From NCBI GenBank assembly GCA_949293335.1, contig CASFDA010000013.1:186001-250000 (forward strand): DNA of 64,000 nt. The letters are read 5' to 3'. Below the pieces are notes generated by a model. That model saw nothing but the letters and a program-made list of their open reading frames with translations, had not been told where the DNA came from and ran no database searches. A program made the translations under genes and the position numbers. How positions within the stretch are numbered: the first letter of the stretch is position 1; every line of letters starts with the position of its first letter. Positions 32,343 through 44,058 of the stretch are shown here, in pieces. Source of the stretch: an uncultured Spirochaetales bacterium. GTDB taxonomy: Bacteria > Spirochaetota > Spirochaetia > Sphaerochaetales > Sphaerochaetaceae.

Positions 32343-32783
32343 ATAGTCAGTTTCCCGGAAGAAAATTTCATATAGTGAGGCTTACTATTTATCTTCTTAT
32401 GACAATTTAGAGGAAAGTTCCAATTCAATTTATTTTAGAAATCACTTATCTTAAAACGTTATATCTATATCTGAAAACCGAGGCTCATTAAGGAAAAACA
32501 AAACTAGTACTCACATCATCCACTGTTTGCATAATTATTTGAGCTTCTGATAATCTCCAGCTTTGATAAAAGCTATTTTCTTATGAAAGCATACGCGAAT
32601 ACTCTCAATGTAATAGGTAAGTATGTGCTTTGCGATTTCTGATTTTATTTAGAATTATTTTTAATTTGATGTTTTAAAAGAGTTATTTGTGTGTACTGCT
32701 TGGTTGGAAGATTTTGGTATTGATATTGGAATCTGAAGATATGATGCGTTATCATTGTGTCGTATAAGATTGCGGGTGTAGAG
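32343..32783. other. gene-free AT-rich spacer
   Basis: Lies between the ykoF promoter and the nuclease-helicase gene. It contains AAAACGTTATA at 32453-32463, identical to part of the LacI-type site in front of the regulator at 44394, but not as a full palindrome. No gene or RNA seen. Confidence 0.4.
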
Positions 32784-34643
32784 ATGATTGTATATTCAGG
32801 TAATAAAGAGTCTTTCCAACGGGATTTGATCAATGGTGTTATTGCATCAAAAATCGAAGTCTTGTTTTCATCTTTAGGCATTCCAAGGGAGAGCCGTGCA
32901 GAGTACAGATCTTGGGAGAATTCTTTACCTAAAATCGGAATGATCATATCGAATCGGAAGATAGATGATGATGTTCAGGTTGCTCTAGAGTATCAGATAC
33001 CATTAACATCAAAACGTGTTGACTTTATGATTGGTGGCAATGATGGTGTCCGCAACAATGTTGTAATTGTAGAGTTGAAGCAATGGGAAACCTGTCGTGC
33101 TACTACTCGTGAGAATGTAGTGAAAGCTTTTACAGGAGGAGCAGAAAGGGATGTTCCTCATCCGTCACAACAGGCATATTCGTATGCAAAATTAATAGAA
33201 AATTTTAATGAAGCCGTAAGAGAGAATGATATAGGTCTTATTCCCTGTGCATTTCTTCATAATTATAAAGAGGAAAATAGAGATCAGATCTGTAATATCC
33301 GATATAAGGAAGCGCTGTCTGATGCACCTGTATTTTTGAAGGAAGATGGTTATGGATTATCGGAATTCATATCACGATATGTACCAAAGCCCGCAAAGAA
33401 AAATCTATTTGAGATACTTGAAAATGGAAAACTGAGGCCATCGAAATCATTGCAGGAAGAGGTAGGGCGTATCCTAAACGGCAATACGGAATTCGATATG
33501 ATTGACGAACAGCTAGTAGCGTACTCTACGATTCTTAAGCTTGTCGAAAACTCTGTCAATGATTCCAAAAAACATACAATAATTGTTCAAGGAGGGCCTG
33601 GAACAGGTAAGTCTGTTATTGCTATCAATCTCTTGGCAAAAATAATCAATAATGGTTTTTCATGTGCCTATGTCACGAAGACAAGTGCTCCAAGATATAC
33701 CTTCTCTGAGAGCTTGATAAAGGGAAAACATAAACTTTCCTATCTGAGAGGTTTGTTCAAAAGTGCAGGAACTTGTTATAAGTTGAATGCTGATACATAT
33801 ACCTGTCTCTTGTGCGATGAGGCGCATAGATTGACTGCGAAGTCTGGTATATATTCTAATTTGGGCGAAAATCAGGTAAAAGAAATAATCAATGCTTCTA
33901 GAATCAGTGTATTCTTCGTGGATGAAGGACAGATAGTTCATGTTAGGGATATTGGAACAATTGATGAGATAAAAAAGCAGGCAGAGGCTCTTGGTGCCAT
34001 AGTACATTGCAATGACAGCCTGAAGCTCACTTCCCAGTTCAGATGCAATGGATCCGATGGATATATAGCTTTTCTTGATGATGTTCTGCAAATCAGACAT
34101 ACGGCGAATTACTCATATTTTGATCTGGACTATGATATTGAAGTTTTTGATGATGCATGTGAGATGAGAGATGCACTTCGAACAAAAAATACTAATAACA
34201 AAGCAAGGATGATTGCAGGTTACTGCTATCCATGGCTCAGCCAAAATGACAAATCAAAGATGGATATCATTCTTCCTGGAGGTTTTAAAGCTCAATGGAA
34301 TTTCACTACAGAACAGTTTGCGACGGATCCAGATTCATTTGAACAAGTCGGATGCATCCATTCTACGCAGGGACTGGAATTTGAGTATGTTGGAATAATC
34401 ATAGGTCTGGACATGGTATACAAAAACAATGAAGTTGTTACTGACTATACAAAGAGGGATCGCAGGGACTCCTCTATACCGAGGGGGAAAACACAAGAAG
34501 ATAGGGTTCTTGCCGATAAAATCATCCGGAATACGTATAAGACATTACTCTCAAGAGGACAGAAGGGATGTTATATTTATTGTCAGGACAATGCATTAAG
34601 GGATTACTTCAAAAAAAGATTATCTGCTGCCGGAAAGGGCTAA
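32784..34643 (+). CDS. PD-(D/E)XK nuclease-helicase, DUF2075/Schlafen-like
   Basis: 619-residue two-domain protein. Residues about 70-110 show a PD-(D/E)XK-type nuclease core (VDFMIGG, then VVIVELKQW with the Glu-x-Lys pair). After residue 250 comes a superfamily 1-like helicase of the DUF2075 kind: Walker A GGPGTGKSVIA, Walker B LLCDEAHRL, TSQFRCNGSD and STQGLEFEYVG. The family start MIVYSGNKE supports ATG 32784 over the GTG at 32757. It stands next to a CRISPR locus and has an AT-rich flank, so a defence role is likely but unproven. Confidence 0.82.
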   Translation: MIVYSGNKESFQRDLINGVIASKIEVLFSSLGIPRESRAEYRSWENSLPKIGMIISNRKIDDDVQVALEYQIPLTSKRVDFMIGGNDGVRNNVVIVELKQWETCRATTRENVVKAFTGGAERDVPHPSQQAYSYAKLIENFNEAVRENDIGLIPCAFLHNYKEENRDQICNIRYKEALSDAPVFLKEDGYGLSEFISRYVPKPAKKNLFEILENGKLRPSKSLQEEVGRILNGNTEFDMIDEQLVAYSTILKLVENSVNDSKKHTIIVQGGPGTGKSVIAINLLAKIINNGFSCAYVTKTSAPRYTFSESLIKGKHKLSYLRGLFKSAGTCYKLNADTYTCLLCDEAHRLTAKSGIYSNLGENQVKEIINASRISVFFVDEGQIVHVRDIGTIDEIKKQAEALGAIVHCNDSLKLTSQFRCNGSDGYIAFLDDVLQIRHTANYSYFDLDYDIEVFDDACEMRDALRTKNTNNKARMIAGYCYPWLSQNDKSKMDIILPGGFKAQWNFTTEQFATDPDSFEQVGCIHSTQGLEFEYVGIIIGLDMVYKNNEVVTDYTKRDRRDSSIPRGKTQEDRVLADKIIRNTYKTLLSRGQKGCYIYCQDNALRDYFKKRLSAAGKG

Positions 34644-35317: not shown

Positions 35318-37879
35318 ATGAGACGTATTGGTTATAGTTTGAAGAAGGCGAAAGCTCAAGAGACAGAAATTAATCCAGACGATTGTCTTGCGAAGACAGA
35401 TGGTTGCGATATGAATGGATTCTCGATTCCTGGCATGACTGTATACCAACATTGTCGTGGCACAGGCCTTGTGGCTAGCAGTCTAAAAGATATGTTCCCG
35501 TATCTTGATGTAAAAGGATTCTTTCCGAAAGGTTTTCAGCTGATTGCAGCCTTACATGATATAGGAAAGATATATCCCTCTTTTCAAAAACGAATAATTT
35601 CAAATCTTTCAGAATCTTCTAAATTTGAGCGCAAGGTAAATCTTTGTCTTGATGATACAGTACCACCAAGTAATGCACCCCATCATTCGGTTGTAAGTCA
35701 AGCTACTTTACAAGATATTTTTGGAGAGTCAATTGCATATATTGCAGGAGCACATCATGGTGCGATGATACAGGCCGCACCGATTCCAACTTCACAAATT
35801 GCAGGGGGAAAGCCTTGGCAGGATGCAAGACTGATGCTCTTGACACAACTTGAAGATGTTTTCGGAGCAGAGATTCCACATGATATGCCATCATTTCTTG
35901 TCGATTTTCTGCTTGGACTTGTCATTGTGTCTGACTGGATCAGTTCCTCTGTGTCTCTAGCTGATCTTATCCGTGAGGGCGATACAGTTTTCATTGAAAG
36001 AGTACTTGCTGCAGGATTTCGCAGGCATTCATATAAGCAAGGTTTGTTATTTAAGGATATTTTTGGTTTTGATATGCGCCCTGAGCAGATTTTGTTGTCT
36101 GATATGGCACTTGGTCCTGGCGTTTACATTCTTGAGGCCGGGATGGGAAGTGGAAAGACAGAGGCTGCGCTTTATTGTGCTTATCGACTTTTGGCTAAGG
36201 GAGAAGCAGAGGGCCTTTATTTTGCATTACCAACGGCAGTGACTTCTCGTGAGATGTACAAACGGGTTATTGCATTTTTGGATAAAGTCCTTGTTGGGGA
36301 AAAAGTGAGTGCAAAGCTTGTGTTTGGTGGATCTGTATTGGACAATGTCGTCTTTTCTGGAAAGTTTTCGGATCCTGACTGGTTTGACAGTCGTAAAAGG
36401 TTAATTTTGGCACCTTTTGGCGTTGGTACGATAGACCAAGCATTGATGAGTATCATTGCAGTACGGCATTCTGCAGTCAGGGCATTTGGTCTTGCTGGTA
36501 AGGTAGTGATACTCGATGAAGTACACAGCTATGATAGCTATACCAGTAATCTAATTGACAGGCTTGTTAAGGAGCTTAGAGATCTTGGTGCTACGGTCAT
36601 AATCTTAAGTGCCACGCTCCGTACTAGTAGTAGACGAAATCTTCTTGGTCTTTCTGGTTCACAGGTATTGTCTGAAGAATATCCTTCCGTGACAGCTGTT
36701 AACGATTCAGGGAAGGTCTCATGTATGGGACTTGAGGAAAACAGCGTCAAGATTGTGGTTCTTGAGCATGAAGAGAATTACGATAACGCGATAGACAAAG
36801 CTATTGAGGAGGCTTCTTGTGGCAGATATGTCCTTTGGATAGAAAACACGGTGGATGAAGCTCAGTTTCTCTACCGTGTTATGGCAGCACGTTGTGACGG
36901 TATTTGTGAAGTAGGTATTCTTCATTCGAGATTTATTGGTACAGACAGGAGGAAGAAGGAACGCAGATATGTACAGATGTTTGGAAAAGAAGGCTGGAAT
37001 TCGAGACTTTCAGGATCGGGCTGTATATTGATCGGGACACAGGTCCTTGAGCAATCTTTAGATATTGATGCGGATGTACTTTTCACTCGATTGGCTCCTG
37101 CTGATATGGTTTTCCAGCGCATTGGGCGATTATGGCGTCATAACCATATGGAAAGAACAGGAAATGCTGTCTGTCATCTCATTCATCCTCAACTTAAAAA
37201 TGTTGAGACAAATCCTCATGTGCTCGGTCCAAGCGCGGCTGTCTATGAACCTTTCATTCTCTATATGTCTCTTCGTTCGTTTTGTGCAAGGAACAAGCTG
37301 ATCGTTCCTAATGATATACGGCCAATTCTAGAAGAAGTATATGACGACAACTTTGACTGTTCTGCATTGCCTCAGATACAGGTGCTTCGTTGGAAACTGG
37401 CTGAACATCGGACAAAGCTGGAGTCTTTGGCGATTCGGGCACAGGCAAGAGTTGGACACGTATTGCCTGACGAAGAAGTATGCACAAGATATTCGGATTT
37501 GAGTTCTTCACGAGTACTGATTCTTTCGCGTGTCGATGTCAACTCAGGAAGGTTATGGCTTGTTGATGGTACTTGTCTAGACTTGTTTAATGCCAATACT
37601 CCAGAATCTCGTGCAATTATATCGTTTGCACTTGAGGAATCAATAGTGAAAGTGCCAGAAAACCATATTTCAGACTTGGATGTACACAACAAGGTAATTT
37701 TGCGACTTCTTTCAAAGTTTATTTATGTTGGACATGAAGAGACTGACGATTTGCTGACCGTTCTATTTGCATGTCAGGACAGTGATCGGCTTGCAGATAT
37801 ATATGGGAATGAGATGTCTGAAATCACATATTCATCTACTTTGGGTTATACTTTTGAAAAAGGGAGGGAAAAACGTTGA
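35318..37879 (+). CDS. cas3: CRISPR-associated nuclease-helicase Cas3 (type I-E)
   Basis: Degrades DNA marked by Cascade. 853 aa with the N-terminal HD nuclease (YQHCRG, LHDIGK with His80-Asp81, AGAHHGA) followed by a superfamily 2 helicase: GMGSGKTEA (Walker A), ILDEVHSYD (DEVH box), LSATL, and GTQVLEQSLDIDADV with QRIGRLWRH (motifs V-VI). GGAG precedes the ATG by 7 bases. First gene of the cas operon; cas8e starts inside its stop. Confidence 0.95.
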   Translation: MRRIGYSLKKAKAQETEINPDDCLAKTDGCDMNGFSIPGMTVYQHCRGTGLVASSLKDMFPYLDVKGFFPKGFQLIAALHDIGKIYPSFQKRIISNLSESSKFERKVNLCLDDTVPPSNAPHHSVVSQATLQDIFGESIAYIAGAHHGAMIQAAPIPTSQIAGGKPWQDARLMLLTQLEDVFGAEIPHDMPSFLVDFLLGLVIVSDWISSSVSLADLIREGDTVFIERVLAAGFRRHSYKQGLLFKDIFGFDMRPEQILLSDMALGPGVYILEAGMGSGKTEAALYCAYRLLAKGEAEGLYFALPTAVTSREMYKRVIAFLDKVLVGEKVSAKLVFGGSVLDNVVFSGKFSDPDWFDSRKRLILAPFGVGTIDQALMSIIAVRHSAVRAFGLAGKVVILDEVHSYDSYTSNLIDRLVKELRDLGATVIILSATLRTSSRRNLLGLSGSQVLSEEYPSVTAVNDSGKVSCMGLEENSVKIVVLEHEENYDNAIDKAIEEASCGRYVLWIENTVDEAQFLYRVMAARCDGICEVGILHSRFIGTDRRKKERRYVQMFGKEGWNSRLSGSGCILIGTQVLEQSLDIDADVLFTRLAPADMVFQRIGRLWRHNHMERTGNAVCHLIHPQLKNVETNPHVLGPSAAVYEPFILYMSLRSFCARNKLIVPNDIRPILEEVYDDNFDCSALPQIQVLRWKLAEHRTKLESLAIRAQARVGHVLPDEEVCTRYSDLSSSRVLILSRVDVNSGRLWLVDGTCLDLFNANTPESRAIISFALEESIVKVPENHISDLDVHNKVILRLLSKFIYVGHEETDDLLTVLFACQDSDRLADIYGNEMSEITYSSTLGYTFEKGREKR

Positions 37880-39375
37880 GCCAGTATTCATTCTGCCTTG
37901 TTGATGAGAAGTGGATTCCTATCGTTGGTCATGGACAGGTGTCACTGTTGGATATCTTTTATGATGACACTTTAGTTGATATCGCAGGAAATCCAATACA
38001 GAAAATAGCTATCATGAAGTTATTGATAGCTATTGCTCAGGCGTCTGTCCAATTAAAAAATGAGACTGACTGGATCACATTAGGTGTTGATGGTCTTTCT
38101 GTTGCTTCACAAAATTATCTTTTATCACATAGGCAATTGTTTGATTTATATGGAGAGAAACCTTTTTTGCAGATGCCACAATTGAAGATGCGTGAGGATG
38201 CTAAAGAAAAGGAAATATTCTTCACTTATCAGCCTGATTTGGCTTCAAGTAATGACAGCATTGTATTCGAGTCACAAAACGCACAGGAGATTAGCGATGC
38301 GGATAGGGCCCTGTTTCTAATACAGTTGATGAACTATGCTCCAGGAGGAAAACGAGTAAGTAACATAGGGGCACTAAGTAAGTCTTTTTTCGGAAAGACT
38401 ATAAGTGCCAAGGCCGGGCCTAGTCTCGGAGGCAGTGCTGGGTATCTGCAGATCTGCATGATGGGCAGATCAATTCGGGAGGGTATATATCTCAACTATT
38501 TATGTAGCGACGAGATCCTCAGAATGATGCCCAATGCTAGGATCGATGCACGTCCACCATGGGAGATGATGCCGGAGTGTGAGGATGATGATAATGCACA
38601 GATGTTGCAACACTCTGTCTATTCATGGTTGATTGCTCTATCACGGTTCGTATTGTTTTGTGATGATGGAATAAAGTATACCGAGGGTCTAGTCTATCCA
38701 AGTTACATAAAGGATGGTTATTTTGAGCCGTTTATTGCTTGCGATAAGATAAAACATAAAGCGATCTATGTAAGCCCTTCGAGGAAACCCTGGCGTTCGT
38801 TGGAGGCTTTGTTACAAAGTGTGTATGTCGTTGGAGAGGCTCAATTTGACTGTGCGATACTATCTTCACATTGGAACCGTACGAAGGCATCTTTTGAGTC
38901 ATTTTCCATTTGGGCAGGAGGTTTGAAAGTCAGTACAAATAGTGGAGACCAGAGCGTCAAACAATCAGATAATTATGTAGAATCACAGATTGAATTGTCA
39001 TCTGACAGTTTGGATACTGATTTCTACTATAGACTAAAAATGTATTTGGCTGAGGTCGAATACTTATCAAATTCAATTGGTCATGCTGTTTCTGGGTATT
39101 ACCAAAACATGGGCATGAAAGAAAAAGATATCAGTGGTATCAAAGATGCTGCAAGTTCTAGCTTTTGGGTTGTTGCTGATAGGTTTTCAGATGAAATTAT
39201 CCTCTGTGCAGAGACTGAAGACAGTAAATGGCATTCCAGTCTTATGCATCAACTGCTTGCAGAGGCTTATACGATTTATGACAGGATGTGCCGGCATGAG
39301 ACAGCAAGGGAAGTAATGTGCTGGATAAACCACAGACGGATAAGTGCTAGAGGAAGGAAAAAGGATGCGGAGTAA
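37876..39375 (+). CDS. cas8e: Cascade large subunit Cse1/Cas8e
   Basis: Large subunit of the type I-E effector that recognises the PAM and recruits Cas3; 499 aa. Family landmarks are LVDEKWIPI at the N terminus, the SLLDIF segment and GGSAGYLQI with the nearby GKTISAKAG. The start codon is TTG, whose bases overlap the cas3 stop (TTGA), with GGAGG 7 bases ahead. The sequence diverges strongly, as is usual for this subunit. Confidence 0.9.
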   Translation: MSQYSFCLVDEKWIPIVGHGQVSLLDIFYDDTLVDIAGNPIQKIAIMKLLIAIAQASVQLKNETDWITLGVDGLSVASQNYLLSHRQLFDLYGEKPFLQMPQLKMREDAKEKEIFFTYQPDLASSNDSIVFESQNAQEISDADRALFLIQLMNYAPGGKRVSNIGALSKSFFGKTISAKAGPSLGGSAGYLQICMMGRSIREGIYLNYLCSDEILRMMPNARIDARPPWEMMPECEDDDNAQMLQHSVYSWLIALSRFVLFCDDGIKYTEGLVYPSYIKDGYFEPFIACDKIKHKAIYVSPSRKPWRSLEALLQSVYVVGEAQFDCAILSSHWNRTKASFESFSIWAGGLKVSTNSGDQSVKQSDNYVESQIELSSDSLDTDFYYRLKMYLAEVEYLSNSIGHAVSGYYQNMGMKEKDISGIKDAASSSFWVVADRFSDEIILCAETEDSKWHSSLMHQLLAEAYTIYDRMCRHETAREVMCWINHRRISARGRKKDAE

Positions 39376-39865
39376 AGAGTTTATTAAGAAGTTTGTGGAC
39401 TATTTATTCTCTTTGAAAGGAAAAGACAAAGGTTTGGTGGCATACTTCAAGCGCGCTGACAAAGAGGTTTCTGAATGGAAAATTTGGCAAGTTTTGTACC
39501 GATTCGGAGTGGATTTACAATACGACGATGAGCGCAGGGCCTTTGCATTGATTGGAGCATGCATTGCGAAATCAAAGCAGAATACGAATGGGAGTGTTGG
39601 ATTAGGCAGAGCGTTTCATATTGCCACAGATAAGGAAGATGGTAATTTTTCGCCACGCTTTATGCGTGTTCTTTCAGCTGAAAACATCAATGAATTGATT
39701 GTCGTTCTCAGGCCGTCACTTGCATATCTTACTGCCAAATGTGGCAATTTGGATTTTGGTGGAATTCTATATGACATACTGGCTTTTAAGAATAATAGAG
39801 ACGATGTCCGAAAGCGCTGGGCTGAGAATTATCTCGGTGACGTAGAGGAGGATGAGAATGAGTGA
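39365..39865 (+). CDS. cse2: Cascade small subunit Cse2/Cas11e
   Basis: Small helical Cascade subunit of 166 aa that bridges Cas8e and the Cas7 backbone. It is basic and all-helical by eye, with the AYLTAKCGNLDFGG region typical of Cse2. ATG 39365 overlaps the end of cas8e by 11 bases and is preceded by AAGGA. Position between cas8e and the remaining Cascade genes confirms the assignment. Confidence 0.88.
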   Translation: MRSKEFIKKFVDYLFSLKGKDKGLVAYFKRADKEVSEWKIWQVLYRFGVDLQYDDERRAFALIGACIAKSKQNTNGSVGLGRAFHIATDKEDGNFSPRFMRVLSAENINELIVVLRPSLAYLTAKCGNLDFGGILYDILAFKNNRDDVRKRWAENYLGDVEEDENE

Positions 39866-40460
39866 TCTATTCTTGTCTCGTCTGCGTATACCACGTATTC
39901 AGCAGCTGAAAATGCATTTAATAGATGAATACGATATACACCAGCTTGTATATAGCCTGTTCCCATATGAAAAGAAGCGAAATTTTCTATATTTTCTTGA
40001 CTATGGTGGTATGGGAGATATGGATGTTCTTGTCCAGTCTGAGGTGATGCCTGATGCGATAAACTCTTTGCAGATTGAAACTAAAGTCATTCCTGATCGC
40101 TTTTGGGAAAACAGGACGTATGCATTCAAACTTAGAATTTCTCCTGTGTCGAAGAAAGATGGAAAGGTCGTGAAGGTTTTTTATAAACATATGGAAGTTG
40201 TTAATTGGCTTGTCACAAGAGAAAATTCCTATGGAGTACATTTCAATACTAATGAAACAGAAAAGATTTCATCAGGAATAATGAAAATGAAAAGCAACGA
40301 TGGTAGGCGAATAACTCTGTCTTATGTGGATTTGTCTGGTATTTTGGATGTCGTTGACTATGAAAAATTTGTACGGATTGCCCGATCTGGAATAGGTCCA
40401 GGTAAAGGATTTGGAATGGGTATGTTGCGGCTTTTGCCTATAGAAAAAATGGAGGAATAA
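39858..40460 (+). CDS. cas6e: crRNA-processing endoribonuclease Cas6e
   Basis: Cuts the repeat hairpin of the pre-crRNA and stays bound to it; 200 aa. DEYDIHQLVYSLFP places the conserved catalytic histidine (His28), and GIGPGKGFGMGMLRLLP is the glycine-rich RNA-binding loop at the C terminus. ATG 39858 is 6 bases after GGAGG, whereas ATG 39852 abuts it. Unusually for type I-E, the gene lies between cse2 and cas7 rather than after cas5. Confidence 0.92.
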   Translation: MSDLFLSRLRIPRIQQLKMHLIDEYDIHQLVYSLFPYEKKRNFLYFLDYGGMGDMDVLVQSEVMPDAINSLQIETKVIPDRFWENRTYAFKLRISPVSKKDGKVVKVFYKHMEVVNWLVTRENSYGVHFNTNETEKISSGIMKMKSNDGRRITLSYVDLSGILDVVDYEKFVRIARSGIGPGKGFGMGMLRLLPIEKMEE

Positions 40461-40465
40461 TCATT

Positions 40466-41542
40466 ATGCAAGACTATCGTGGAGTAAGAATTGAGTTTCA
40501 CATTTTACAATCATTTCCTGTCACTTGTCTCAATAGAGATGATGTTGGCTCTCCAAAAACAGCTGTTGTTGGTGGCGTCGAGAGAGGAAGAGTGAGCAGT
40601 CAGTGCTGGAAGAGGCAGGTACGTTTGGCCTTAAGAGATCTTGATGTGCATATTGCTGTCCGGACAAGAAAGATTGCAGATATGATTGAAGAACGGTGCT
40701 GTGGAGTGTGCTCTGAAGAAAAGAAAGAATATATTGCTCGTATGGCTTCTGCTATTCAAAAAAGCAAAGATACACTTTTCTTTATTTCTGAGAACGAATT
40801 AAAGACTCTTGCCGAATATGCTGATGGTGTAGTTGATTATCAGACAGAGATCAAGAAGAAAACGCTTGATAAGGATCTTGAAAAAGCGATGCCAAAACTG
40901 CTAAAGGAATGTGGAATCAAAGGTTTGACCGATCTTGATGGTCTTGATATAGCTTTGTTTGGGAGAATGGTGGCAAATGCTACAGAGCTGAATGTTACAG
41001 CGGCATCTTCCTTCTCTCATGCTATCACGACACATAGGATTTCCTCTGCTGTTGATTATTTTACGGCTGTTGATGACTATATTTCTGAGTCGACTGAAAC
41101 TGGGGCAGGTCACATTGGTGCGAATGAATTCAGTTCTGGTACATATTACAGGTATATCAGTCTTGACCTAGGTATATTGGCGAATAATCTCCATGGTACG
41201 GAAGATCTGACTAAGGCTGTTGATATTTTCACAAGAGCACTTTTCATTGCGGTTCCTGCAGCGAAACAGACTACATTCACGGGATATTGTCCTTGGGATT
41301 ATGCGCATATTCTCATCAGAAAAGGTCAGCCTTTGTCAATTTCGTTTGACAAGCCTGTGCAGTCTAAAGGTGAAGGGTATCTCGAACCAAGCAGGATTGC
41401 TATGGAAAATGCAATTCTAAGAAATGAGAAATTGTTTGGTTCGATGTATGGGTTGATTGCTGAGTTTAAGTATGGAGATGTCGAAGAATTTGGCATTGAT
41501 CAGCTTTGCAAATCAATCTGTGATGTGATTGGACGTTCCTGA
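40466..41542 (+). CDS. cas7e: Cascade backbone subunit Cas7e (Cse4/CasC)
   Basis: Forms the helical filament along the crRNA; 358 aa. RIEFHILQSFPVTCLNRDD, the SPKTAVVGGVERGRVSSQ region followed by CWKRQVR, and GANEFSSGTYYRYISLDL are typical of the I-E Cas7. Starts 5 bases after the cas6e stop. Full length. Confidence 0.94.
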   Translation: MQDYRGVRIEFHILQSFPVTCLNRDDVGSPKTAVVGGVERGRVSSQCWKRQVRLALRDLDVHIAVRTRKIADMIEERCCGVCSEEKKEYIARMASAIQKSKDTLFFISENELKTLAEYADGVVDYQTEIKKKTLDKDLEKAMPKLLKECGIKGLTDLDGLDIALFGRMVANATELNVTAASSFSHAITTHRISSAVDYFTAVDDYISESTETGAGHIGANEFSSGTYYRYISLDLGILANNLHGTEDLTKAVDIFTRALFIAVPAAKQTTFTGYCPWDYAHILIRKGQPLSISFDKPVQSKGEGYLEPSRIAMENAILRNEKLFGSMYGLIAEFKYGDVEEFGIDQLCKSICDVIGRS

Positions 41543-41561: not shown

Positions 41562-42239
41562 ATGTATATCGTCTTGTGGTTGGAAGGCCCCTTGCAGGCT
41601 TGGGGGCATGACTCAAAGTTTGGAGTACGCGAGACATTGCCTTTTCCGACAAAGTCTGGAGTTCTTGGAATGATACTGGCGGCACTTGGAAAGGGAGGAC
41701 CTCAACGTGATTTGCTTGGGCGTTTGTCGCCACTTCCTCAACAGGTCATTTCCTATGGTTCAAACATTCAGATGACGGACTATCAAGTGATAGGAAATGG
41801 ATATTCATCGAAGGGATGGAATTCACTTCTTATACCGCGTAAACGTGATGGTAGTTTTTCTGTTGGAGGCGGTGCAAAGATTTTATATAAACAGTATTTG
41901 CAAGATGCTCGGTTTGCAGTTATCATAACTGTTCCTTGCGATCTGTGTACAGAGATTGCTGATGCTTTGCATATGCCAGTATGGCCTTTGTGCTTGGGTA
42001 GGAAGAATTGTGTACCGTCAAGGCCAGTGTTTGCTGGAATATGTGAAAGAGAATGCGATGTCGATATCGTGCTCAAACCTATTGTAGGGAATCTGAAAAT
42101 CCAGTTTCGTGTGATCGAGGGCAATTATCCTGAAATGGGGGAGGTCCTGATTCTTAATGATGTTCCTATCTGCTTTGGAGACCATAAGGAATATGAATCA
42201 CGATATGTGACAGTGATAAAGGAGTTTCCCGACGAGTGA
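41562..42239 (+). CDS. cas5e: Cascade subunit Cas5e (CasD)
   Basis: Binds the 5' handle of the crRNA; 225 aa. LWLEGPLQAWGHDSKFGVRE and PTKSGVLGMILAALG are the Cas5e signature, and FGDHKEYESRYVT its C-terminal segment. ATG 41562 is 8 bases after GAAGGAG. The final codons CCC-GAC-GAG-TGA overlap the expected cas1 start: the C of GAC falls where an ATG would need T. Confidence 0.93.
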   Translation: MYIVLWLEGPLQAWGHDSKFGVRETLPFPTKSGVLGMILAALGKGGPQRDLLGRLSPLPQQVISYGSNIQMTDYQVIGNGYSSKGWNSLLIPRKRDGSFSVGGGAKILYKQYLQDARFAVIITVPCDLCTEIADALHMPVWPLCLGRKNCVPSRPVFAGICERECDVDIVLKPIVGNLKIQFRVIEGNYPEMGEVLILNDVPICFGDHKEYESRYVTVIKEFPDE

Positions 42240-43077
42240 CCGCCTCTTAATTAAAATCACGCATGATAATCTTCCTCAAATCAAGGATAGATATCCTTTT
42301 CTATATCTGGAACGTGGACGAGTAGAAATTGATGACAGTTCAGTGAAATGGATTGATGCTGGAGGCTTCGTTGTTCGTTTGCCTATTGCAACAATCTCCA
42401 CCTTGCTTCTTGGCCCTGGTACTAGTATTACTCATGAAGCTGTCAAAGTACTATCCTCTGCAAATACCACAGTATGTTGGGTTGGAGAGGATTCCTTATT
42501 GTTCTATGCAATCAGTCAGAGTCCGACATCAGATACTAGAAAAATGCGCAGACAAATAGAGCTGGCGACAAATCCATCTCAGAGGTTAGTTGTGGCAAGA
42601 AGGCTTTTTGCACAACGATTTCCTGATGAGAATATTGAATCATTGTCGATAAGCGAACTCATGGGAAAGGAGGGGCTGAGAGTACGTGAATCGTATGAGG
42701 CTTATGCGAAAGAATATGGAGTTGGTTGGGTTGGTCGTCGATTTGTTCCTGGACAATTTCATATGAGTGATACAACTAACAAAATTCTGACTGCTGCTAA
42801 TGCGGCTTTATACTCGCTTGTATTGTCTGCTATCATTTCTACAGGATTGTCTCCTCATGTTGGTTTTATCCATACAGGAAGTCCTCTTCCATTTGTCTAT
42901 GATATTTCTGATCTGTATAAAGACAAGCTTTGTGTATCGTTCGCTTTTCGAATGACTGCTGAACTCGGATGTACATATGACAGAAAGAAGTTATTGAATC
43001 GATTCCGTGAATGTGTTTCAGAGTTTTGTCTTATGGAAAGATTGCCGAATGATTTGAGTCGAATTCTTGGAGAGTGA
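42232..43077 (+). CDS. cas1: CRISPR integrase Cas1 (type I-E) with ACG in place of the start codon
   Basis: Spacer-integration enzyme, 281 aa if read from 42232. From there the frame reads (M)SDRLLIKITHDNLPQI, the conserved I-E Cas1 N terminus, followed by LLGPGTSITHEAVK and HVGFIHTGSPLPFVYD, the usual active-site region. AAAGGAG lies 7 bases before the ACG, the right distance. No ATG, GTG or TTG occurs in frame until GTG 42343, which would remove 37 residues of the N-terminal domain. Either ACG initiates weakly or Cas1 is not made properly. The rest of the gene is intact. Confidence 0.88.
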   Translation, partial: TSDRLLIKITHDNLPQIKDRYPFLYLERGRVEIDDSSVKWIDAGGFVVRLPIATISTLLLGPGTSITHEAVKVLSSANTTVCWVGEDSLLFYAISQSPTSDTRKMRRQIELATNPSQRLVVARRLFAQRFPDENIESLSISELMGKEGLRVRESYEAYAKEYGVGWVGRRFVPGQFHMSDTTNKILTAANAALYSLVLSAIISTGLSPHVGFIHTGSPLPFVYDISDLYKDKLCVSFAFRMTAELGCTYDRKKLLNRFRECVSEFCLMERLPNDLSRILGE

Positions 43078-43083
43078 TTTAAG

Positions 43084-43371
43084 ATGATTGTTGTTATGGC
43101 AGATGATATTCCTCCTGCAGTTAGAGGGAGAATGAAGCTTTGGTTCATAGAAATTAGACCAAATGTTTTCGTTTCTGGCGTAAAGGATACTGTAGCTAAA
43201 AGTGTTGTAGAATATCTGCTCAAAAGTGCTCGGGATAGTTCGAGCATGGTAATTATAGAGAGTATACGGAAGGCACCATACTACAAGATCTCGAAACTTG
43301 GATATGGACTGGATAATATACGAGCTATTAATGGGCTTCCACTGATTTTTGACAAGATTAGCGAGGTTTAG
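43084..43371 (+). CDS. cas2: Cas2 (type I-E)
   Basis: Partner of Cas1 in spacer acquisition, 95 aa, of the I-E (CasF/YgbF) kind: MIVVMADDIPPAVRGRMKLW followed by FIEIRPNVFV. It starts 6 bases after cas1. The C-terminal extension beyond residue 75 is typical of Cas2e. The CRISPR leader begins inside or right after this gene. Confidence 0.92.
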   Translation: MIVVMADDIPPAVRGRMKLWFIEIRPNVFVSGVKDTVAKSVVEYLLKSARDSSSMVIIESIRKAPYYKISKLGYGLDNIRAINGLPLIFDKISEV

Positions 43372-43377
43372 TACTAC
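43349..43377 (+). promoter_or_regulatory. possible CRISPR leader promoter
   Basis: TTGACA (43349-43354, inside cas2) with TACTAC (43372-43377) at 17 bases; alternative -10 elements follow in the run TACTATATATGG. Only 48 bases separate the cas2 stop from the first repeat, so the leader is short. Confidence 0.45.
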
Positions 43378-43419
43378 TATATATGGTGTTACTAAGATAA
43401 AATACACCTATATGTCGCT

Positions 43420-44058
43420 GTTTGCTCCACGCATGTGGAGATGTTTCCATCTAGTAATCCTCCGACTAACTAAATTGTAAGTTTGCTCCACGCATGTGGA
43501 GATGTTTCTATGAGATATCAGCGCGAACTTCAGGAGCGTATGTTTGCTCCACGCATGTGGAGATGTTTCCGAAGCGAGTGAATGAAGTTTTTGCGACGCA
43601 ACGTTTGCTCCACGCATGTGGAGATGTTTCTAAGATATACATCACTTGTTTAACGGAAGGAGCGTTTGCTCCACGCATGTGGAGATGTTTCTATTTGATT
43701 TTCAAGAATAAGAAGCTCCCTTTAGGTTTGCTCCACGCATGTGGAGATGTTTCTTATGTTGCTGAGATTGGTAGAGATTTTTCTACGTTTGCTCCACGCA
43801 TGTGGAGATGTTTCTTACGGTTCTTCTCGTGGTGGTATAAGGCTTTAGTTTGCTCCACGCATGTGGAGATGTTTCCGAGATTGAGGCAGAACTTGCTGGT
43901 GTTGTTTGGTTTGCTCCACGCATGTGGAGATGTTTCTGATGCATCTGCTAAGCGTCAGTATCTGATGTTGTTTGCTCCACGCATGTGGAGATGTTTCTGA
44001 CAAGTAGAAGGAGCGAGGGCCTTCCAGTTTGTTTGCTCCACGCATGTGGAGATATTGT
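43420..44058 (+). CRISPR. type I-E CRISPR array, 11 repeats and 10 spacers
   Basis: Repeats of 28 bases start at 43420, 43481, 43542, 43603, 43664, 43726, 43787, 43848, 43909, 43970 and 44031. Each begins GTTTGCTCCACGCATGTGG and ends GAGATGTTTC; the arms CTCCAC/GTGGAG flank a GCAT loop, the hairpin cut by Cas6e. Spacers are 33 bases except the fifth (43692-43725, 34 bases). The last repeat ends GATATTGT instead of GATGTTTC, marking it as the leader-distal end, so the leader is on the cas2 side. No spacer visibly matches other parts of this window. Confidence 0.98.

Follow-up and report, generated by a model that had tools for sequence, protein, structure and literature searches.

An ACG codon in place of the cas1 start codon in a type I-E CRISPR-Cas operon of an uncultured Spirochaetales bacterium

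Can Cas1 still be made, and can new spacers still be acquired, in a CRISPR-Cas operon in which the codon at the expected beginning of cas1 is ACG? The question is raised by a stretch of 64,000 nucleotides (referred to as the window; positions 186,001 to 250,000 of contig CASFDA010000013.1, assembly GCA_949293335.1) from an uncultured Spirochaetales bacterium. The draft genome, possibly metagenome-assembled, comprises 35 contigs with a total of 1.92 Mb and has a completeness of 99%. It should be noted that the ACG has been seen in this one assembled genome and that its middle base is a consensus call.

The operon and the junction of cas5e with cas1

A complete type I-E operon, in the order cas3-cse1-cse2-cas6e-cas7e-cas5e-cas1-cas2, lies in the window, and one CRISPR array follows it (Table 1). 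The proteins that are the signature of this subtype, Cse1 and Cse2 together with Cas3, Cas5e, Cas6e and Cas7e, are present with NCBIfam matches over cut-off, and the type I-E adaptation pair, Cas1e and Cas2e, is present too (TIGR03638 and TIGR01873). All eight Cas proteins thus lie over their NCBIfam cut-offs, the interference genes are intact, as the original prediction states, and seven of the eight genes have standard starts. The TTG with which cse1 begins (37876–37878) is found at the corresponding place in G004, a genome of the same genus, and a weak start of the first Cascade gene seems to be common to the genus. Directly upstream of the cas operon, at 32757–34643, a 628-aa protein with the P-loop motif GGPGTGKS is encoded.

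Table 1. Features of the cas operon, the cas1 start region and the CRISPR array (positions in the window)
Feature	Position	Strand	Evidence or remark
cas3 (helicase/HD nuclease), intact	35318..37879	+	NCBIfam TIGR01587 and TIGR01596 over cut-off
cse1/casA (cas8e), intact, TTG start	37876..39375	+	TIGR02547 over cut-off
cse2/casB (cas11), intact	39365..39865	+	TIGR02548 over cut-off
cas6e/casE, intact	39852..40460	+	TIGR01907 over cut-off
cas7e/casC, intact	40466..41542	+	TIGR01869 over cut-off
cas5e/casD, intact; final codons overlap the cas1 start region	41562..42239	+	TIGR01868 over cut-off
Shine-Dalgarno sequence AAAGGAG, 7 nt before ACG	42218..42224	+	sequence; duplex energy −8.3 kcal/mol
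ACG in place of the cas1 start codon	42232..42234	+	protein alignment; ATG of G004 at equal offset from the Cas5e stop
cas1 (type I-E), 281 codons plus stop, without standard start	42232..43077	+	TIGR03638, 312.4 bits (cut-off 215.6)
AUU, codon 7, candidate alternative start	42250..42252	+	keeps the structured core; residues 1–12 with pLDDT <50
GTG, first standard in-frame start	42343..42345	+	product from here would be missing helix 1 and strands 1 and 2
cas2e, intact, ATG start	43084..43371	+	TIGR01873, 78.6 bits, over cut-off
Leader; last 12 nt CTATATGTCGCT identical in G004	43372..43419	+	
CRISPR array with 10 unique spacers between 11 repeats of 28 nt, the final one degenerate	43420..44058	+	

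The 3′ end of cas5e reads GTG ATA AAG GAG TTT CCC GAC GAG TGA, with the TGA stop at 42237–42239. The frame of Cas1 is +1 relative to that of Cas5e and reads TAA (42217) AGG AGT TTC CCG ACG (42232) AGT GAC CGC CTC TTA ATT AAA ATC. It is open only past the TAA at 42217–42219, the ACG lies 5 nt ahead of the Cas5e stop, and the first in-frame ATG, GTG or TTG is the GTG at 42343, 111 nt downstream of the ACG. Coordinates and frames of the original prediction, which had placed the start of cas1 at an ACG and had seen no standard start for 111 bases, are therefore correct; in addition to what it described, two in-frame near-cognate codons are present, AUU at 42250 and AUC at 42256. Among the nine possible single-base changes of an ATG at this place only one is silent in Cas5e, namely that of T to C, so that the codons also confirm the claim that the change costs Cas5e nothing. 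The RNA of the junction folds no better than shuffled sequences do. The Shine-Dalgarno duplex, computed with a generic anti-Shine-Dalgarno sequence, has an energy of −8.3 kcal/mol at this junction versus −1.1 kcal/mol in G004.

The start codon in relatives and elsewhere in the genome

G004 is the nearest relative with the same system, and its Cas1 is 72% identical to that of the window. At an equal offset of 5 nt to the Cas5e stop, ACGAGTGA of the window corresponds to ATGCCTGA in G004. When 17 Cas1 sequences were aligned, 9 of the 16 relatives had a start in the exact column of the ACG (ATG in 7, GTG in 2) and the other 7 had theirs 1 to 12 codons upstream of this column. A standard start ahead of the conserved core was found in 30 of 31 non-redundant type I-E cas1 loci drawn from the family, the class and other phyla, the sole exception being the window. 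The comparison of ATG with ACG in related type I-E loci, which had been proposed as a check, thus found standard starts and no ACG in the relatives, and the unusual start of cas1 is not kept across them (30 of the 30 others standard). The simplest ancestral-state reading would be a change of ATG to ACG in this lineage.

Does the genome make general use of ACG as a start? No sign of such use was found on contig C13 (443,238 nt, approximately a quarter of the genome), where open frames with 150 or more codons were scanned for Shine-Dalgarno sequences. In this contig 54 first standard starts have a strong Shine-Dalgarno sequence 5–9 nt before them (41 ATG, 8 GTG, 5 TTG). Most of the listed frames that lack a standard start nearby look spurious, and cas1 alone among them is a recognisable gene with a near-cognate codon. 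A codon-usage scan for start-less genes yielded no convincing case, cas1 not being among its top 25. An altered initiation factor IF3 was considered as a source of a relaxed start choice; infC is present in this genome, over the family cut-off and apparently with a TTG start. Scans of IMG/VR with the junction and with Cas1 found nothing relevant, and no relevant paper on cas1 with an ACG start emerged from full-text searches of the literature.

What the ACG codon may do

Cas1 itself appears to be in order. The residues E147, H214, D224 and D227, which we take to be the equivalents of the catalytic residues of E. coli Cas1, are invariant in the Cas1 alignment, and the frame has none of the marks of a pseudogene: no stop, no frameshift, no catalytic loss and no acceleration. 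The ratio of the genome's own branch to that of G004 is approximately 2.1 for cas1, 2.5 for cas7 and 1.6 for cas5 (with three outgroups; a coarse measure from two ingroup genomes). The view that adaptation has been crippled, if this is meant as decay of the gene, is therefore unsupported. Since Cas1 is otherwise intact, either the change is of recent date or the protein is still being produced; the intactness would be equally compatible with a fully functional Cas1 translated from a start that has escaped recognition.

The AlphaFold model of Cas1 (mean pLDDT 76) indicates how much of the N terminus could be spared. Residues 1–12 are unstructured with pLDDT <50, the first structured residue is at approximately 14, and a helix (14–20) is followed by strands at 23–26, 29–34 and 37–42. 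The GTG at 42343 corresponds to residue 38, and in the product from there the third strand would also be cut; it is very unlikely that this product is functional.

We consider it probable, with some reserve, that the ACG is a recent hypomorphic start: initiation at it would be leaky and assisted by the strong Shine-Dalgarno sequence, adaptation would be throttled and interference would be untouched. Most simply, it would be a nearly neutral mutation of this kind and not an evolved regulatory device. The course of events may have been as follows. A recent ATG-to-ACG transition would have struck the cas1 start codon of an otherwise normal type I-E operon. Ribosomes would still be loaded at the ACG by the strong Shine-Dalgarno sequence, which would permit leaky initiation, and by coupling to the termination of Cas5e, and initiation would proceed at a small fraction of the AUG level. 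Cas1 would be made in traces, and cas2 may be partly lowered too, via coupling or polarity to the reduced translation of cas1. Spacer acquisition would be strongly reduced, and crRNA processing and interference would continue from the existing 10 spacers.

Published measurements are consistent with such a level. In E. coli reporter libraries ACG is within a group of codons with 0.1–1.5% of the activity of ATG (PMC6925171), and an ATG-to-ACG variant of another gene, employed in an E. coli circuit, rendered the regulator much weaker but still working (PMC10449621). From these data a low, leaky level of Cas1 would be expected, and weakened adaptation would most likely be the consequence of the start change.

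There is an appreciable, if minor, chance that the ACG arose as an error of sequencing or assembly, or that the consensus took up a base from a minor strain, in which case the real codon is ATG and there is nothing unusual. In a draft of 35 contigs that is possibly metagenome-assembled, one base decides everything, and the relatives all have a start. However, the base in question is far from the ends of a 443-kb contig that is free of ambiguous bases, and in this contig no other recognisable gene with a strong Shine-Dalgarno sequence has lost its start. Moreover, it would be a transition, and of the nine single-base changes of the ATG the other eight would not be silent in Cas5e, a preference that an error would not show.

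Rather unlikely is a start of Cas1 at another near-cognate codon, most plausibly the AUU at 42250, useful levels being reached via reinitiation past the Cas5e stop. AUU is known as a bacterial start from infC of E. coli. Here it is residue 7, and a start at it would, in the AlphaFold model, cost only residues of the unstructured stretch. It would presumably bring LPQIKDR to about the distance from the methionine that it has in E. coli Cas1, giving an N terminus of approximately the E. coli length, and E. coli chains do align with a matching offset. On the other hand, this AUU has no Shine-Dalgarno sequence at a good distance, the strong one pointing at 42232; part of the conserved R-L-hydrophobic-I-K motif would be lost; and AUU is itself a weak start.

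It is very unlikely that the ACG was selected for its low efficiency. In this case the inefficient codon and the strengthened Shine-Dalgarno sequence would constitute a control at the level of translation that sets spacer acquisition low in this lineage, e.g., to limit autoimmunity. The Shine-Dalgarno sequence is indeed far stronger than that of G004; the set contains just two further non-ATG starts, which are GTG codons and likewise follow strong Shine-Dalgarno sequences; and in a published survey strong Shine-Dalgarno sequences are more common with GUG and UUG starts (PMC5622118). However, a strong Shine-Dalgarno sequence is also found with ATG (in locus L034), so that the pairing is unspecific, and no relative shares the ACG, which is confined to a single lineage. 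The original interpretation holds for the start substitution, the silent change in Cas5e and the intact interference genes; no positive evidence supports its proposal of the ACG as an adaptation that dampens spacer uptake, and decay of the gene is likewise unsupported.

Most improbable of all is that ribosomes shift by +1 at UUU-CCC-GAC, close to the 3′ end of cas5e, which would yield a Cas5e-Cas1 fusion and need no start codon. In favor of it, Cas1 is encoded +1 relative to Cas5e in a frame that has no stop from 42220 onward, and +1 slippage is possible on CCC-G. Against it, the CCC is missing from G004, where the junction differs, the RNA folding offers no stimulatory structure, and we know of no Cas5-Cas1 fusion of such a sort.

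The CRISPR array and comparison with known systems

The array has the properties of a type I-E array, for which palindromic repeats of 28–29 nt, spacers of 32–33 nt and a leader are characteristic, and its repeats are spaced by 61–62 nt. A spacer of 34 nt instead of 33 occurs once among the ten (43664–43725). The first spacer base after the 28-nt repeat is C or T in 57 of 57 spacers, 10 from the window (43448–44030) and 47 from the two arrays of G004 (L076:1693-12730). The likeliest reading is that the last repeat base is derived from the PAM and that the PAM ends in a pyrimidine, from which it would follow that the spacers of the window were acquired canonically. With 11 repeats in the window versus 49 in G004, the shorter array would fit a reduced acquisition, a comparison of one genome pair that proves nothing.

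In G004 two arrays flank the operon, and in the window genome only the downstream one is found. The G004 array upstream of cas3 has the repeat variant CACATATG (L076:1693-2208) and that after cas2 the variant CACGCATG (L076:10323-12729). For the four newest spacers of the window, seed patterns were run against IMG/VR, and nothing relevant was found.

If real, the ACG would be a natural uncoupling, by a single base, of CRISPR memory-making from interference, and the locus would offer a ready test of the minimum of Cas1 required for adaptation. There is also a consequence for annotation: where only ATG, GTG and TTG are allowed as starts, this Cas1 will be called 37 codons short, from the GTG at 42343, or broken. 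As it stands, the finding amounts to a single mutation in a single genome and is a modest, if real, oddity.

How does the locus compare with what is known? It agrees with other type I-E systems in its eight genes in one operon and in the adjacent array of 28-nt repeats, and it differs from them in the ACG that cas1 has for a standard start codon, the remainder being ordinary. With infC and pcnB of E. coli, which have AUU starts, cas1 shares the feature that the only plausible start behind a ribosome binding site is not AUG, GUG or UUG. The start codon of infC, however, is conserved and regulatory, whereas the ACG of cas1 is found in one genome only. Finally, there are CRISPR-Cas loci whose adaptation genes are inactive or absent, and these have in common with the locus described here an intact interference together with an adaptation that is probably reduced here; in this operon, however, the adaptation genes are complete and only the initiation of cas1 is affected.
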